From contig NZ_CP145904.1 in assembly GCF_036895565.1 (NCBI RefSeq), positions 2,046,001 through 2,110,000 on the forward strand: a DNA stretch of 64,000 nucleotides, given 5' to 3'. The translations under genes were made by a program, and so were the position numbers. This stretch comes from Flavobacterium sp. KS-LB2 (GTDB lineage: Bacteria > Bacteroidota > Bacteroidia > Flavobacteriales > Flavobacteriaceae). Shown in pieces: positions 52,905 through 60,936 of the stretch (positions within the stretch are counted from its first letter, which is position 1; every line of letters begins with the position of its first letter). Below the pieces are notes generated by a model. The model saw only the letters and a program-made list of their open reading frames with translations. It was not told the origin of the DNA and made no database searches.

Positions 52905-55508
52905 ATGAACATAAATAAATTTACAATCAAATCCCAGGAAGCCATTCAGCTTTCGCAACAATTGGCGCAAAGCCAAGGACAGCAACAAATAGAAAATGAA
53001 CATATTTTCAAGGCTATTTTTGAAGTAGATGAAAATGTGGCACCTTTTATTCTGAAAAAACTGAACGTAAATGTGCCGTTATTTCTCCAAATATTGGATA
53101 GCACGATTCAGAGTTTCCCGAAAGTTTCCGGTGGCGAAATCATGCTTTCCAGAACCGCAAACACAACACTTAATGAGGCCGAAATTATCGCTAAAAAAAT
53201 GAATGACGAATTCGTTTCAGTAGAGCATTTAATTTTGGCAATTTTTGATTCTAAAACCAAAGCTGCCCAAATATTAAAAGATCAGGGCGTAACGGGAAAA
53301 GGACTGAAAGCAGCCATAGAAGAATTGCGAAAAGGAGAACGAGTAACTTCGGCATCTGCGGAGGAAACATACAATTCATTAAATAAATATGCCAAAAACC
53401 TCAACGAACTGGCTCGATCTGGAAAACTAGATCCTGTTATTGGTCGCGACGAGGAAATTCGCAGAGTGCTGCAAATTCTGACACGTCGTACTAAAAATAA
53501 CCCAATGTTAGTCGGTGAACCTGGCGTAGGGAAAACCGCCATTGCAGAAGGTTTAGCGCACCGAATTGTAGATGGAGACGTTCCTGACAATTTGAAAGAT
53601 AAAATCGTGTATTCCCTTGATATGGGAGCGCTGATTGCCGGTGCCAAATACAAAGGGGAATTTGAAGAGCGCTTGAAATCTGTGGTAAAAGAAGTGACTT
53701 CTGCCGAAGGTGATATTGTCTTATTCATTGACGAAATCCATACGCTTGTGGGAGCTGGCGGTGGCGAAGGTGCCATGGATGCAGCGAATATCTTGAAACC
53801 CGCTTTGGCTCGTGGAGAATTGCGCGCTATTGGTGCTACAACTTTAGACGAATATCAAAAATATTTTGAAAAAGACAAAGCACTCGAAAGACGTTTCCAA
53901 AAAATAATGGTTGAAGAACCGGATACCGAAAGTGCGATTTCAATTTTGCGTGGAATCAAAGAAAAATACGAAACGCATCATAAAGTCCAAATCAAAGACG
54001 ACGCTATTATTGCGGCTGTCGAATTATCGCAACGTTACATTACCAACCGCTTTCTTCCGGACAAAGCCATTGATTTAATGGATGAAGCCGCTTCAAAACT
54101 GCGTATGGAAATCAATTCGAAACCCGAAGAACTCGATGTTTTGGATCGAAAAATCATGCAGTTGGAAATTGAAATTGAAGCCATCAAACGTGAAAAAGAC
54201 GAAAGCAAACTCAAAATTCTGGGTATGGATTTGGCCAACCTCAAAGAAGACCGCAATGAAATCTACGCCAAATGGAAATCAGAGAAAGATGTAGTCGATA
54301 ATATTCAAGCCGTTAAAACGGAGATTGAAGACTTCAAATACGAAGCCGAACGTGCAGAACGTGAAGGCGATTATGGAAAAGTAGCCGAAATTCGTTACGG
54401 TAAAATCAAAGAAGCACAGGAACGCCTGGATGTTTTACTCAAAGAATTACAAGAAAACCAGTCGGGAACTTCGTTGATAAAAGAGGAAGTTACCCGCGAA
54501 GATATAGCCGAAGTTGTGGCCAAATGGACCGGAATTCCGGTGATGAAAATGCTTCAGGGCGAACGAGAAAAATTATTAAAACTGGAAGATGAATTGCATC
54601 ACAGAGTGGTAGGACAGGAAGAAGCGATTCAAGCCGTGAGCGATGCCGTACGTAGAAGCCGTGCCGGACTGCAGGACATGAAAAAACCAGTAGGAACGTT
54701 TCTTTTCCTTGGAACAACAGGAGTTGGAAAAACAGAATTGGCGAAAGCCTTAGCGGAATATCTGTTTGACGATGAAAATGCAATGACGCGTATTGACATG
54801 AGCGAATACCAAGAACGCCACAGCGTAAGCCGTTTGGTGGGTGCGCCTCCGGGATATGTAGGGTATGATGAAGGCGGACAATTGACCGAAGCCGTTCGCA
54901 GAAAACCATATTCTGTAATCTTATTGGATGAGATTGAAAAAGCGCATCCGGATACGTTTAATATCTTGCTACAAGTTTTGGACGAAGGACGTTTGACAGA
55001 TAACAAAGGACGTTTGGCCGATTTTAAAAATACGATTATCATCATGACTTCTAATATGGGAAGCCAGATTATTCAAGATAAATTCGAAAATCTAAAAGGA
55101 AGCGTGGAAGCTGCAACCGAATTGGCTAAAGTCGAAGTATTGGGATTATTGAAACAAACGGTGCGCCCAGAATTCATCAATCGTATTGACGAAATTGTGA
55201 TGTTCACGCCATTAACTAATGAAAACATTGCTCAAATCGTAGGGTTACAACTGAAAAATGTAACCAAAATGCTGGCACAACAAGGCATCACGATGGACGC
55301 CACTCCAGAAGCTATTGCCTATTTATCTGAGAAAGGATACGATCCGCAATTTGGAGCTAGACCCGTGAAAAGAGTGATTCAACGAGACGTTCTCAATGAA
55401 TTATCCAAAGAAATTTTATCCGGAAAAATAACAACAGACAGCATTGTTTTGATTGATGCGTTTGATGGAAAACTGGTTTTTAGAAATCAAACCGAGTTAG
55501 TTTCCTAA
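52905..55508 (+). CDS. clpB: ATP-dependent chaperone ClpB
   Basis: An 867-residue disaggregase; I use ATG at 52905 (MNINKFTIKSQEAI), since the 15 codons before it are not ClpB-like. N-domain, NBD1 with GEPGVGKT, coiled-coil M-domain (about 405-525), NBD2 with GTTGVGKT and the GAPPGYVGYDEGG pore loop are all present. Its last 31 codons are duplicated at 59090-59185. Confidence 0.97.
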   Translation: MNINKFTIKSQEAIQLSQQLAQSQGQQQIENEHIFKAIFEVDENVAPFILKKLNVNVPLFLQILDSTIQSFPKVSGGEIMLSRTANTTLNEAEIIAKKMNDEFVSVEHLILAIFDSKTKAAQILKDQGVTGKGLKAAIEELRKGERVTSASAEETYNSLNKYAKNLNELARSGKLDPVIGRDEEIRRVLQILTRRTKNNPMLVGEPGVGKTAIAEGLAHRIVDGDVPDNLKDKIVYSLDMGALIAGAKYKGEFEERLKSVVKEVTSAEGDIVLFIDEIHTLVGAGGGEGAMDAANILKPALARGELRAIGATTLDEYQKYFEKDKALERRFQKIMVEEPDTESAISILRGIKEKYETHHKVQIKDDAIIAAVELSQRYITNRFLPDKAIDLMDEAASKLRMEINSKPEELDVLDRKIMQLEIEIEAIKREKDESKLKILGMDLANLKEDRNEIYAKWKSEKDVVDNIQAVKTEIEDFKYEAERAEREGDYGKVAEIRYGKIKEAQERLDVLLKELQENQSGTSLIKEEVTREDIAEVVAKWTGIPVMKMLQGEREKLLKLEDELHHRVVGQEEAIQAVSDAVRRSRAGLQDMKKPVGTFLFLGTTGVGKTELAKALAEYLFDDENAMTRIDMSEYQERHSVSRLVGAPPGYVGYDEGGQLTEAVRRKPYSVILLDEIEKAHPDTFNILLQVLDEGRLTDNKGRLADFKNTIIIMTSNMGSQIIQDKFENLKGSVEAATELAKVEVLGLLKQTVRPEFINRIDEIVMFTPLTNENIAQIVGLQLKNVTKMLAQQGITMDATPEAIAYLSEKGYDPQFGARPVKRVIQRDVLNELSKEILSGKITTDSIVLIDAFDGKLVFRNQTELVS

Positions 55509-55531
55509 TTGGAATAATTTAAAAATAATGA

Positions 55532-55561
55532 AAACATCAGTCGAAAGGCTGGTGTTTTTTT
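55532..55561 (+). terminator. Terminator after clpB (copy 1 of a recurring type)
   Basis: AACATCAGTC-GAAA-GGCTGGTGTT followed by T residues. Two near-identical copies occur at 59211 and 60907. Confidence 0.85.
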
Positions 55562-55777
55562 GTTGCTATATATAAATATATTCTATTCACTGTTTAAAAA
55601 ATTGTCAACAAGAAAAAACAGCAATTTGAAATTAACACTGAAATAAACAAAATAATTTAAAAAAAATAACACGAATATTCATCTATTTTTATTTACTTTC
55701 GGAATTTAAATTAAACTAGAAAAGTAATTTTTTAAAAAAATCAGTAGTAAGAATAAACAAGATTTTAAAACTTATTA

Positions 55778-58700
55778 ATGAAGTTAAAAAAAACACCAAA
55801 AATAATTATGAATATTTCTACAACTTTCAAAAATCTAGTATTCGTTTCCGCTTTTTTTTGTTTCTCATTACCTATACATTCTCAAACCAATTGGGAATTA
55901 TTGAACCCAAAACCATCCAGTAATAATGGTTTAGATATTCGTTTTGTTTCAAGTAGCAATGGATATATTATAAATTCTAATGAAATACTTGAGACTTTAG
56001 ACGCTGGAGTTTCTTGGCAAAAAAAACAAAATATAAACAGTGGGAATGACTTAAATTTCTATAGTACCATCGGTTTTATTGTCGGTAATAATGGTTATGT
56101 TTTAAAATCCAATGATGGCGGAACTTCTTGGTCACAAATTTCCACAGGGTTCAGCGATAATTTTAACACAGTAAACATTATAAATGAAACTGACATTATT
56201 ATTTCAACTTCAAATAGTATTATTAAGTCCTCAGATGGAGGTTTAACTTGGACAAATAAAACAATCCCTAATAGCACAGTTAATAAAACGTTTTTTGTAA
56301 CTCCTCTAATTGGTCACGCAGCATGTAATAATGGTACAATGCTAAAAACTGTTGATGGAGGTGTCAATTGGTATGTTACCCAGAGCTCCAATTCATTTCC
56401 ATCAGATTTATTAATGGTTTATTTCATAAATCAAAATATTGGTTTTTACACAAAAGAACATAGCGATATGTATAAAACGATTGATGGTGGAGAAACATGG
56501 TCCAAAGTAAATGGAATTTCTGATGCCATTTATGCAATATCTTTTTTAAATGAAAATATGGGATATGCAACTGGTGCTGATGGAGTTATTTTTAAAACCA
56601 TGGATGGAGGAAATACATGGGTATGGGCTGGTTTCCAAAATGGACGTTATGCTAACACAACAATATATGGCATACATTTTTTAGACCAAAACAGAGGTTA
56701 TGCGACTGGTGCTCGTGGACGAATTATTAAAACTATTGATGCTGGTAAAACTTGGACTGAGAACTCACCTACTTATAATGATATCAAGCAGCTGCAGTTT
56801 ATTGATAACAATATGGGATTTGCTGAAGTTGGAGACAAATTCTTTAAAACAGTGGACGGTGGCCAAAATTGGCAAAATATTGGTTCCTTGAATCTTGGAC
56901 AATCAGTTTTCGCAAGTAAATATCAATTTATAAATAAAAATTTAGGCTACGCTACAACGGGAGGAACTTACGGAGGACAAGTATATAAAACCGTTGATGG
57001 TGGAATTACTTGGGCAATATTAAACAATGGATATTACATTATTGACGAAGGTATTGATTCTATTTGTTTTTTGGATGAAAATACTGGTTTTATATCAGGA
57101 GGGTTTAATCAAAAAAAAGTAATGAAAACTATTGATGGAGGTATTACATGGCAGCAAGTATTGAATCAAGAATTTGGACAAATACAATTTCTCAATAACC
57201 AAGTAGGTTATGCAAATCGTATCGGTTATACAGGTGGCAGAATGTACAAGACTATAGATGGAGGTAATACTTGGAATATAAATATTGATGTCGACCAAAG
57301 TATTAATTCTTTTCATTTTTTAGATGAAAATAACGGTTATTTTGCCGGTGACAATGGCTTAATGTATAAAACTAAAAATGGCGGAATTACTTGGGAGAAA
57401 TTGACAGTACCTTATGTTTATTACACATTTGTAAAATTTTATTCTAAAAATGTAGGATACATTTTTGATGATTATGGACGACTATACAAGACAACTAACG
57501 GTGGCGTCACATGGGAAAATATAACAACAATAAACTCGTATGGTTCACCATCAAATTATATCGATATTGTTCAAAAAGACATTTACGTAGGTGGTAGTAA
57601 TGGTAAAATTTTAAAAAGCGAGATTTCATTTGATCCTGTTTCAATTCTTGCTAATCCAGTTCTAAATCTATCAAACAAGGGTGCAACACTTTCTGGAAAT
57701 GTAGCTTCGAATCAAGGACTTATTCAAAATATTAGATTTGAATACGGAACAAATTATGCTCTCTCTAACATTAAAAACACAAATCCTAATTCAGTAACTT
57801 TCGATTCTTCATTAGATATTTCTAGTGATTTAACTAATCTTAGTCCAAATACAACTTACTTTTATAAAGTGGTGGCAACTTATAACAACATCGATTATTC
57901 AAGTCAGATCTTGAGTTTCACTACACTTCCAGATTTTGTAGTATCCATGAATGATATTTACACCTATTCTTCAAATACCGCAGAAGTATCAGGAAATATA
58001 AAATCAAATGAAAATGAAATTTCCAATATTGAATTTCAGTACGGAACAAAAGCTGATTTTTCAGAATTTAGTATTTTACCACTAAACACTTTGATAGCAG
58101 GAAATACAAATCAAAACATCACAAGTAATTTGTCAAACTTGATTCCAGAAACTACTTATTACTTGAGAATTAAAGCAGTACATAAAGGACTAAATATTTA
58201 TAGTCCAGTAAAATCATTTAAAACAAGGGCAGAATATACAATCAATTTATATAATCCTACTATTAGTGGTAATAATGTTACTTTATCAGCTTATATAACT
58301 AGTTATAATAAAAACATCACTAACATAGTTTTTGAATACGGAACCATAAATTATGAAAATTCTATCTCGACTGCTATCAATCAGGTACCTCTAAATACTT
58401 CAAATACTGTAAGTGCTACAATTGCTAATCTAGACCCAAATTTGACCTATTATTATAGAATAAAAGCATTAAATGGAACTGATATTATTTATAGTAAAGG
58501 AAACGTTTTTAATACTTCAGGCAATGTAATTATGGTTTCTAATCCAACAATAGAGACGACTTCTGCTATTAGTTTTGTGGGTCTCATTAATGGCTATGGA
58601 AAATATCTTACAAATATTCAATTTGAATATGGTCTCACAGACAGCTATGGTTCAACAATTAACGGTTTACCTAACTATGCTTTTGGATATGAGACAAGCA

Positions 58701-59089
58701 CTATAACAGCTACAGTAACTAATCTATTACCAAATCAAACCTATTTCTATAGATTAATCGCTACATACAACGGAAACAAACTTTACTCCAGTAAATATCA
58801 ATTTACAACTAACACGCTAAATATTGATAATTTTGATATCGATAATAATAAAATTACCCTGTATCCAAATCCAACAAATGATGAAGTGAGTATTACTTCA
58901 AATGGAATTAAGAATGTAGCAAGTATTATATTAATTGACATTACTGGAAAAGTATTAATGACTCAAGATAATCCAAATCAAAAAAATAATTTTAAAATTT
59001 TACTTTCCAACCAAGCAAAAGGCACATATATTGTAAAAGTGCTATTTAGCGACAATACTATTAGTAGCAAAAAACTTATTTTAAAATAA
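55778..59089 (+). CDS. Secreted T9SS BNR/Ycf48-like repeat protein (1103 aa)
   Basis: A large exported protein with a signal peptide (FFCFSLPIHSQ); ATG at 55808 is an equally possible start. About 13 BNR/Ycf48-type repeats of the form K(T/S)xDGGxTW fill residues 60-600, enough for two beta-propellers. Four fibronectin-III-like modules (FEYGT...TYFYK) follow, about 630-1010. The C-terminal about 80 residues (ITLYPNPTNDEVSI...GTYIVKVLF) are a type A T9SS sorting domain. The gene is very AT-rich, ends exactly where a duplicated clpB tail begins, and is therefore an insertion. Likely surface adhesion or binding; ligand unknown. Confidence 0.93.
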   Translation: MKLKKTPKIIMNISTTFKNLVFVSAFFCFSLPIHSQTNWELLNPKPSSNNGLDIRFVSSSNGYIINSNEILETLDAGVSWQKKQNINSGNDLNFYSTIGFIVGNNGYVLKSNDGGTSWSQISTGFSDNFNTVNIINETDIIISTSNSIIKSSDGGLTWTNKTIPNSTVNKTFFVTPLIGHAACNNGTMLKTVDGGVNWYVTQSSNSFPSDLLMVYFINQNIGFYTKEHSDMYKTIDGGETWSKVNGISDAIYAISFLNENMGYATGADGVIFKTMDGGNTWVWAGFQNGRYANTTIYGIHFLDQNRGYATGARGRIIKTIDAGKTWTENSPTYNDIKQLQFIDNNMGFAEVGDKFFKTVDGGQNWQNIGSLNLGQSVFASKYQFINKNLGYATTGGTYGGQVYKTVDGGITWAILNNGYYIIDEGIDSICFLDENTGFISGGFNQKKVMKTIDGGITWQQVLNQEFGQIQFLNNQVGYANRIGYTGGRMYKTIDGGNTWNINIDVDQSINSFHFLDENNGYFAGDNGLMYKTKNGGITWEKLTVPYVYYTFVKFYSKNVGYIFDDYGRLYKTTNGGVTWENITTINSYGSPSNYIDIVQKDIYVGGSNGKILKSEISFDPVSILANPVLNLSNKGATLSGNVASNQGLIQNIRFEYGTNYALSNIKNTNPNSVTFDSSLDISSDLTNLSPNTTYFYKVVATYNNIDYSSQILSFTTLPDFVVSMNDIYTYSSNTAEVSGNIKSNENEISNIEFQYGTKADFSEFSILPLNTLIAGNTNQNITSNLSNLIPETTYYLRIKAVHKGLNIYSPVKSFKTRAEYTINLYNPTISGNNVTLSAYITSYNKNITNIVFEYGTINYENSISTAINQVPLNTSNTVSATIANLDPNLTYYYRIKALNGTDIIYSKGNVFNTSGNVIMVSNPTIETTSAISFVGLINGYGKYLTNIQFEYGLTDSYGSTINGLPNYAFGYETSTITATVTNLLPNQTYFYRLIATYNGNKLYSSKYQFTTNTLNIDNFDIDNNKITLYPNPTNDEVSITSNGIKNVASIILIDITGKVLMTQDNPNQKNNFKILLSNQAKGTYIVKVLFSDNTISSKKLILK

Positions 59090-59185
59090 ATTCTGTCCGG
59101 AAAAATAACTACAGACAGCATCGTTTTGATCGATGCGTTTGATGGAAAACTGGTTTTTAGAAATCAAACCGAGTTAGTTTCTTAA
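59090..59185 (+). pseudogene. Duplicated 3' end of clpB (31 codons plus stop)
   Basis: Reading from 59090 in frame gives ILSGKITTDSIVLIDAFDG and the rest of the ClpB C-terminus to its stop. Against the clpB copy the only differences are six synonymous third- or first-position changes (for example TTA to CTG). It has no start and is not a functional gene by itself. It is a direct-repeat scar of the event that brought in the BNR gene. Confidence 0.92.
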
Positions 59186-59210
59186 GAATCTAGAACATTT
59201 AAACTTATGA

Positions 59211-59242
59211 AAACACTAGTCGAAAGGCTGGTGTTTTTTTTT
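59211..59242 (+). terminator. Terminator after the clpB scar (copy 2)
   Basis: AACACTAGTC-GAAA-GGCTGGTGTT followed by eight or more T residues, the duplicate of the clpB terminator. Confidence 0.82.
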
Positions 59243-59317: not shown

Positions 59318-59785
59318 TTAATCTATAGCTTCAATTTCACAAGTTGGAAAATGCAGAATTGGAAAATTACAAGAATTGGCTATAAAACAGAGTTGGTTTG
59401 CTTTTTTATGCAAGCTAAGTGCCTCCTCTATTTTTTCTTTGTTAGTAATACAAACTTTAGGATTGAGATTAATGGCAATAAAACGTCCGCTACTGTCTTC
59501 CGAAACTTCCAGAGTTGCCTCTGCTTCGTCTGTATAAGACACAACGTCAATCCCATTTTGTTTACAAACATACAAGTAAGACATCATGTGACAGGAAACC
59601 ACACTGCTCAACAACAAGTCTTCGGGATTGTATAAAGCGGGATCTCCTTTGAAAGCTTTAGCAGCCGAAACATGTAGAACAGCCTTACCATCAATCGTTA
59701 TGGTATGACTTTTAGTATACGTCGCCGCTTCCTTTTTAGAAAAAAGCCAATCTAATTTAGCTTTAAATACATGTTTGAACCCCAT
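59318..59785 (-). CDS. OsmC-family hydroperoxide reductase-like protein
   Basis: A 155-residue OsmC/Ohr-type protein with two redox Cys contexts, LLSSVVSCHMMSYLY and FIANSCNFPIL, and DPALYNPEDLLLSS. The family reduces organic hydroperoxides using thiols. Monocistronic and divergent from the DUF808 gene. Confidence 0.92.
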   Translation of the reverse strand: MGFKHVFKAKLDWLFSKKEAATYTKSHTITIDGKAVLHVSAAKAFKGDPALYNPEDLLLSSVVSCHMMSYLYVCKQNGIDVVSYTDEAEATLEVSEDSSGRFIAINLNPKVCITNKEKIEEALSLHKKANQLCFIANSCNFPILHFPTCEIEAID

Positions 59786-59987: not shown

Positions 59988-60857
59988 ATGGCATCAGGTT
60001 TTTTCGCACTATTAGATGATATCGCAGCAATCATGGATGATGTTGCAGTAATGAGTAAATTTGCAGCCAAAAAAACGGCTGGTATTTTAGGTGATGATTT
60101 AGCCGTAAATGCTGAGAAAGCTTCCGGATTTGTTTCATCGCGAGAGCTTCCGGTATTATGGGCAATTGCAAAAGGTTCTCTGCTCAATAAGGTAATCATT
60201 TTACCCATCGCTTTTTTGCTGAGTGCATTTTTACCGGTAGCAGTTATCATAATCTTAGTACTTGGAGGACTTTATTTAGCCTACGAAGGTGCCGAAAAAA
60301 TATACGAATACTTCTTTCCGCACGAACATGCAAAACACGAAATTTCGTTGGAACCGATGACCGAAGAACAAATTTTAGCCTTTGAAAAAGAAAAAATAAA
60401 ATCAGCCATCGTAACCGATTTTATTTTATCAGTAGAAATCGTAATTATTGCATTGGGAACCGTTATTGGCAAACCTATTTTATCTCAAATTATGGTTGTT
60501 TCCATCATTGCAATAATAGCAACCGTAGGTGTTTATGGGATTGTAGCCCTAATTGTACGTATGGATGAAGCAGGTTTAAAACTGATAAGCATGAGCACCA
60601 GAGAGCGTAGCTTCTCAAAGACTATCGGAAATATTCTGGTACAAGCCTTGCCAAAAGTCATTAAGAGTTTATCCTTTATAGGTACCATCGCCTTACTGTT
60701 AGTAGCAGGTGGCATATTTGTACACAACATCGGTTTTTTACATGGCGTATTACCTCAATTACCTTCCATTCTAACTGAATTTTTAATAGGACTTGTATTT
60801 GGTGGAATTGTTTTGGGAATTGTTACGCTGTTCAAAAAGATCACTGGCAAAAAGTAA
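59988..60857 (+). CDS. DUF808 family inner-membrane protein (YedI-like)
   Basis: A 289-residue membrane protein with the family start ASGFFALLDDIAAIMDDVAVMSKFAAKKTAGILGDDLAVNA and about six hydrophobic segments. Function in the family is unknown. Followed by the third copy of the GTCGAAAGGC terminator. Confidence 0.9.
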   Translation: MASGFFALLDDIAAIMDDVAVMSKFAAKKTAGILGDDLAVNAEKASGFVSSRELPVLWAIAKGSLLNKVIILPIAFLLSAFLPVAVIIILVLGGLYLAYEGAEKIYEYFFPHEHAKHEISLEPMTEEQILAFEKEKIKSAIVTDFILSVEIVIIALGTVIGKPILSQIMVVSIIAIIATVGVYGIVALIVRMDEAGLKLISMSTRERSFSKTIGNILVQALPKVIKSLSFIGTIALLLVAGGIFVHNIGFLHGVLPQLPSILTEFLIGLVFGGIVLGIVTLFKKITGKK

Positions 60858-60906
60858 GCAACATTTGAATACACTTTAGCCGCATACATAATTTAAAAAC
60901 AAGGAG

Positions 60907-60936
60907 AACATCAGTCGAAAGGCTGGTGTTTTTTTT
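60907..60936 (+). terminator. Terminator after DUF808 gene (copy 3)
   Basis: AACATCAGTC-GAAA-GGCTGGTGTT then T residues, nearly identical to copies at 55532 and 59211. Confidence 0.85.

Follow-up and report, generated by a model that had tools for sequence, protein, structure and literature searches.

In the displacement of rhs C-termini (Jackson et al., 2009, PMC2935791) and of type VI secretion system (T6SS) effectors in Vibrio cholerae (Kirchberger et al., 2017, PMC5361080), a constant upstream region acts as anchor and the old 3' part of the gene is left orphaned downstream, without an integrase being invoked; circles have been proposed for the rhs tips (PMC2935791) and one-sided homology for the Vibrio effectors (PMC5361080). 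Other reports describe homology-facilitated illegitimate recombination as homology at one end combined with a join lacking long homology at the other (PMC3240628; also PMC5361080), and hotspots of horizontal gene transfer as single intervals whose content changes while the genes on either side are conserved (Oliveira et al., 2017, PMC5635113). Here we describe a locus that resembles these systems, located behind the chaperone gene clpB in a 64,000-nt stretch of Flavobacterium sp. KS-LB2 (contig NZ_CP145904.1, positions 2,046,001 to 2,110,000; hereafter, the window), where a gene for a protein with BNR repeats and a type IX secretion system (T9SS) sorting domain (hereafter, the BNR gene) separates clpB from a second copy of the clpB 3' end. 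We consider it fairly probable that a clpB-anchored recombination event displaced a 3' end, in the manner of rhs C-terminal displacement, and the locus looks like a case of gene swapping beside a core gene by recombination rather than by a dedicated insertion enzyme. Unlike in the rhs and T6SS systems, the anchor is a housekeeping chaperone, the peptide encoded is identical at the new and the old end, and the cargo stands as a gene of its own after clpB instead of supplying a new C-terminus. Unlike the described cases of homology-facilitated illegitimate recombination, the window holds only the product and no event, the short homology at the junction being recognized by eye, and, unlike other hotspots, repeated core-gene tails mark some of the events at clpB. 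A literature search joining Flavobacterium, clpB, hotspot and insertion found no paper.

The clpB gene (52905–55508, forward strand) is intact and encodes 867 aa. Its frame ends in tail copy 1 (55413–55508, 31 codons and the stop), followed on the same strand by a 3'-untranslated region (3'-UTR) and terminator (55514–55561). The BNR gene (55778–59089, forward strand, 1103 aa) comes next, and tail copy 2 (59090–59185) is fused directly to its stop codon and trailed by a second terminator (59193–59240), both on the forward strand. The repeated tail, its place right after the BNR stop codon and the second terminator had been reported in the initial annotation, made from the letters of the window, and hold; a third clpB-type terminator (60888–60935, forward strand), 94% identical to the first and located behind a DUF808 gene, was absent from it. 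Both tails and their terminators are observed directly: the repeat, extending over 102 nt (55407–55508 versus 59084–59185), is 93% identical, and the terminators are 81% identical, with leaders that diverge more. The six base differences between the two 96-nt tails fall in five codons and are all synonymous. As 23%–30% of random single changes in this stretch would be synonymous, six out of six has a chance probability of 1e-4 (unweighted) to 8e-4 (transitions weighted 4:1), and the divergence must therefore have arisen while both tails sat in working clpB genes, as the initial annotation had argued.

A chance repeat was rejected on the basis of the repeat identity, the restriction of the 21-nt terminator core (up to 3 mismatches) to these three places genome-wide, apart from a weaker terminator match at C1:1424911–1424944 (85% over 34 nt), and the presence of a repeated 3' tail in only one, clpB, of the 47 window open reading frames (ORFs) of at least 120 aa with at least 2.5 kb behind them. 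Duplication of the whole clpB gene was likewise rejected. The genus searches sampled 398 genomes of a larger group for the tail and the BNR gene, and 199 for the recombinase and repeat considered below. Among the 360 of the 398 genomes with a tail match, two matches occur only in the window genome (G000; other G and L labels denote comparison genomes and loci) and in G163, where each match is a full-length frame and the two lie on separate contigs of a 4%-contaminated assembly; this search is blind to short or decayed copies and misses those of G283, G349 and G007.

Comparison of 117 clpB loci showed the BNR gene to be an insert relative to close relatives. The right flank of the site consists of osmC (59318–59785, reverse strand, Pfam OsmC) and the DUF808 gene (59988–60857, forward strand, Pfam DUF808 1.8e-96). 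Eleven of the 117 loci have osmC behind clpB, and in six of these (G265, G394, G133, G029, G355 and G317) the site is empty, with osmC at +104 to +153. They include the closest relative found, G265, an insert-free strain of the kind that the initial annotation predicted, with osmC at +148; its clpB is 92.7% identical to that of the window over aligned nucleotides, and the proteins are 99.5% identical. Extra DNA is present in the other osmC-bearing loci, G247 (+320), G201 (+968), G007 (+1086), G382 (+2691) and the window (+3813), and in G201 it carries a gene that by eye is lipoprotein-like. Because the clpB-osmC spacing varies among the eleven loci, the interval is a variable slot in this clade. 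A tail repeat without an insert, named in the initial annotation as counter-evidence, was judged real at none of the 112 loci scanned for tail repeats (the rest having less than 1.5 kb downstream), a scan that copies within ~100 nt would escape.

A second copy of the clpB 3' end behind new DNA, as expected of C-terminal displacement, is found at five of the 117 loci: in the window genome, F. turcicum and G283, which were chosen via the window or the BNR gene, and in G349 and G007, chosen via the clpB tail or kinship. The order in F. turcicum (L084) is clpB, BNR (75% identity), 27 residues of clpB tail (85%) and DUF808, with the join between BNR stop and tail, by eye, within ~3 nt of its position in the window; seven codons differ between its two tails from −63 to −16, all synonymously, and amino-acid changes occur at both ends. 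In G283, BNR (66% identity) is followed by a palindromic stretch and then by a 42-nt remnant of the clpB tail that retains its UTR and terminator. The predicted loci with other cargo between repeated clpB tails also exist. G349 (L115 2946–3567) has HepT-like and nucleotidyltransferase (MntA-like) ORFs between two copies of tail, UTR and terminator, the tail and terminator copies being 93% identical over ~120 nt; the MntA-like ORF also matches the candidate-defence family PDC-S09. G007 has a 187-aa ORF with no Pfam match, followed by a decayed tail and a terminator resembling those of the empty-site relatives, and by eye G382 shares this leader and ORF but has no tail copy. The tail copies begin at −102 to −96 in the window, at about −90 (by eye) in F. 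turcicum, at −42 in G283, at −37 (BLAST) or −46 (by eye) in G349 and at −28 (BLAST) or −35 to −45 (by eye) in G007; decay can shorten the copies.

Coding-tail repeats were flagged at six of the 112 scanned loci (G000, G283, G349, G322, G307 and G337), the last three of which were not counted, the match falling on the end of the DUF808 gene and its terminator. F. turcicum and G007 escape the scan filter and were found with the tails of other species or by eye. In an automated scan, 3 of 69 clpB genes and 3 of 482 other ORFs had a tail copy; all three of the latter are tandem paralogs (53%–61% identical over most of the gene), and when these are counted as zero the enrichment at clpB has P = 0.002, with two of the three clpB cases being the window and G283 and with ORFs of different loci partly orthologous and hence non-independent. 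As a side observation, a further copy of the clpB UTR, terminator or post-terminator stretch lies within 6 kb at 21 of the 112 loci, so that terminators may undergo exchange or offer short patches of homology. In addition, a partly palindromic repeat, CCGCTGTCCGCAATATCTTTT ... GGATATTTGCTTCCATCGGGGCTA, was seen by eye in L096 between BNR and the tail remnant as well as behind clpB terminators at several loci.

Under the favoured reading, donor DNA from a related Flavobacterium with a BNR gene directly behind clpB would have recombined with the resident clpB. Such a donor-like order is present in G135, where clpB and BNR are directly adjacent and a tail copy was not detected. The clpB part would have served as homologous anchor and the other end would have joined within the last 100 nt of a second clpB copy, thereby placing BNR before a complete clpB tail and terminator that were pushed downstream; since the 31 residues encoded by the two tails are identical, the reading frame of clpB stayed complete. 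By eye, the right junction shows a shared short string, AAATT. A clpB-anchored event whose other end joined within a clpB tail explains the restored gene, the displaced tail, the differing start points and the different cargo. The direction of transfer and the identity of the foreign copy are inferred, and the donor may have been a circle or a linear molecule attached at one end through short homology. The single crossover with DNA from a related strain put forward in the initial annotation stands as one option; a one-sided homologous event or a circular intermediate would account for the locus equally well.

A circle would have comprised clpB tail, terminator and BNR and integrated by one homologous crossover in the clpB tail, in which case both copies would be hybrid and the junction between BNR stop and tail would have been fixed in the circle. 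The window genome and F. turcicum share the BNR gene and, by eye, nearly the same junction, and copy 2 of F. turcicum has a degenerate start and a middle that differs from copy 1 only synonymously (seven codons), as this scheme would have it; circular intermediates also have a precedent in the proposal for rhs tips (Jackson et al., 2009, PMC2935791). However, a 96-nt arm is short, the tail copies begin elsewhere where the cargo is different, and no circle was seen, though none was sought, and we regard this route as unlikely.

Genes for tRNA, tmRNA and icd are known targets of site-specific elements. An insertion of this kind at the 3' end of clpB, the other route offered by the initial annotation, would likewise restore the gene end, leave an extra copy downstream and bring several cargos to one site. 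Yet neither a linked integrase nor a constant crossover position was found. The insert (55509–59089) contains no recombinase ORF, no ORF of 80 aa or more other than BNR being fully contained in it (recombinases beside clpB at other loci were not searched for), and from genome to genome the downstream copy begins at different points, although copies can also become shorter by decay. The lack of a recombinase in the insert and the varying start points together make a fixed attachment site unlikely, and action of a recombinase in trans on the clpB end appears very improbable.

The BNR gene bears on both the cargo and its history. Its product matches Pfam PSII_BNR (2.7e-42), Pur_ac_phosph_N (1.2e-18) and Por_Secre_tail (7.4e-12) as well as NCBIfam TIGR04183. 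It has Ycf48/BNR repeats and phosphatase-N/fibronectin-like domains between a start that by eye resembles a signal peptide and a C-terminal T9SS sorting domain, and is probably an exported, T9SS-sorted surface protein. Relatives at E ≤ 1e-60 are present in 9 of 398 Flavobacterium genomes, and in eight of these the distance to clpB is no more than ~5 kb. The BNR gene immediately follows clpB in G000, G135 and G283, comes after DUF808 in G102, G207 and G369, and sits 3.4 kb behind clpB in G243 and ~1 kb upstream of it in G189; in G297 it lies away from clpB. A scan of genome contigs added F. turcicum, F. limicola (away from clpB) and F. kayseriense (the same place as in G243), along with a short form that in Chryseobacterium aquifrigidense stands, by eye, behind a groEL-like gene; two of the six matches (L088 and L089), in which nothing but the C-terminal sorting domain is shared, were left out. 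BNR is a recurrent neighbour of clpB in the genus and no arbitrary cargo. In this respect the reusable cargo dock suggested by the initial annotation is an incomplete picture. In the BNR tree, G000 pairs with F. turcicum and G135 with G283, whereas in the clpB tree F. turcicum groups with G152 and G000 with its sister G265 (both trees being single FastTree runs, with G207, whose BNR gene has an in-frame stop, represented by its last 160 residues). Because the two trees disagree, lateral exchange is likely. Carriage of BNR by a plasmid or phage was rejected: there were 14 weak matches to plasmid records, none covering 80% of the query, and no phage match.

The two tails differ in their affinities. 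Among the 116 other clpB loci, copy 2 is closest to the tail of G265 (3/96 differences, versus 8 for copy 1) and copy 1 to that of G355 (3/96, versus 5 for copy 2), and the post-terminator sequence of copy 2 is G265-like as far as osmC. By these tail distances and the G265-like flank, the native copy would be the right one and the import the left one. Several observations weigh against this assignment and, more broadly, against displacement by a clpB-anchored event. In its 3'-UTR, copy 1 matches the type of the empty-site sister G265, and copy 2 that found in G355, G394, G247 and G029, which speaks for import of the right copy or of the allele as a whole; the tail differences point to the displaced copy as native, whereas the UTR type points the opposite way. 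Ninety-six nucleotides with 8 versus 3 differences make a weak assignment, and copy 1 is about as distant from G265 as the whole clpB is over the aligned region (92.7% identity). In F. turcicum the relation is the reverse of that in the window, copy 1 being somewhat nearer to the sister G152 than copy 2 (10 versus 14 differences in the last 75 nt). A donor strain was not found among the compared genomes and, once the window and the BNR-fetched G283 are set aside, the enrichment of tail copies at clpB amounts to 1/67 versus 0/482 and is no longer significant (P = 0.12). As to the UTR conflict, the UTR may have moved separately, the allele may have arrived differently or G265 itself may be a deletion product; G265 has a further copy behind its DUF808 gene, 94% like its own clpB UTR and terminator.

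The last of these alternatives belongs to a scenario in which BNR is an old resident behind clpB that most lineages have lost, the tail copy arose by duplication on the spot and G265-like strains are deletion products of recombination between the repeated terminators. The presence of BNR near clpB in eight of nine genomes would fit it, and G265 combines the UTR of copy 1 with the sequence that follows the terminator of copy 2, the outcome expected of such a deletion. The BNR divergence between the window and F. turcicum (75% identity) also resembles that of the neighbouring DUF808 gene (78%), and the copies in G349 and in G283 are alike in the UTR too. However, copy 2 of the window has no amino-acid change and is only 3/96 from a working tail, so that its function must have been lost recently, and the BNR and clpB trees disagree. 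We consider long residence quite improbable.

Besides displacement at clpB, the genus harbours integron-like cassettes; matched inverted ends are a hallmark of integron cassettes. The window BNR gene was rejected as such a cassette, as matched inverted ends GTTNNNNNN / NNNNNNAAC were not found, the best match being 4 nt, a length that 222 of 300 random windows attain. The BNR genes of F. limicola and F. kayseriense do have matched ends, 9 nt long, a length attained by 5/300 and 2/300 random windows, respectively. Matched inverted ends of 9–10 nt (GTT...AAC) accompany 7 of 7 inter-repeat intervals in G283 and 7 of 9 in F. limicola (that of BNR included), compared with 2/3 in G135, 2/5 in G000 and 1/4 in F. 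kayseriense, to which the BNR unit and the first cassette at +316 to +958 behind clpB (10-nt ends) are added. The F. limicola BNR gene resides in an array of mostly single genes separated by imperfect palindromes of ~115–145 nt, behind a 347-aa tyrosine recombinase, and in F. kayseriense (L086 3930–12200) a cassette cluster including BNR begins 316 nt behind the clpB stop, with ends GTTATAGAGC / GCTCTATAAC. The BNR units of the two species (L085 6875–10302 and L086 6811–10233) are 97% identical over 3.4 kb in different chromosomal places, each with cassette ends GTTGGGCAA. Cassette-like repeats also occur behind clpB at 10 of the 117 loci, several as partial matches, and lie 2.8–6.2 kb behind it in G265, G394, G355, G005 and G283.

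Integron-like regions were delineated in the window genome (C1:1048000–1066000, L188), in L085 (3144–15590), in L190 (8290–18001) and in L189. The window genome has one copy of the recombinase (C1:1056290–1057330, reverse strand; L188 8291–9331), with six repeats behind it within the 18 kb examined. Against the integron-integrase model (cut-off 265) the recombinase reaches 210 bits; it just passes the model ‘site-specific tyrosine recombinase/integron integrase’ (221.5, cut-off 220) and, where it is aligned with Vibrio IntI (2a3v), 54 residues face 12; judging by these comparisons, it seems to be an Xer/IntI-like recombinase without an IntI segment. The integron-integrase family search is uninformative alone, with none of nine genomes passing the cut-off and sub-cut-off matches in all 14 controls. 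The recombinase is present in 92 of 199 genomes at E ≤ 1e-70, compared with 39 of 199 for one repeat motif (at most one mismatch), and many recombinase-bearing genomes therefore lack this particular motif. A 2008 survey gives intI genes in the Bacteroidetes/Chlorobi group; among the matches listed, no literature on such cassette arrays in Flavobacterium was found.

Returning to clpB-anchored displacement, we put forward, tentatively and as a rather doubtful extension, that the clpB tail might be a portable homology arm: units of cargo, tail piece and terminator would pass from one Flavobacterium to another and insert after any clpB through ordinary recombination, leaving the chaperone unharmed and the old tail as a scar, with the slot partly fed from a genus-wide pool of integron-like cassettes. 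If true, the locus would represent gene gain beside a housekeeping gene in which the displaced end is still readable, repeated with several cargos in one genus. It would open the question of how bacteria add genes beside important genes while leaving these intact and without an integrase, and the end-displacement known from toxin genes would be a by-product of recombination in general, to be seen at any variable slot next to a conserved gene.

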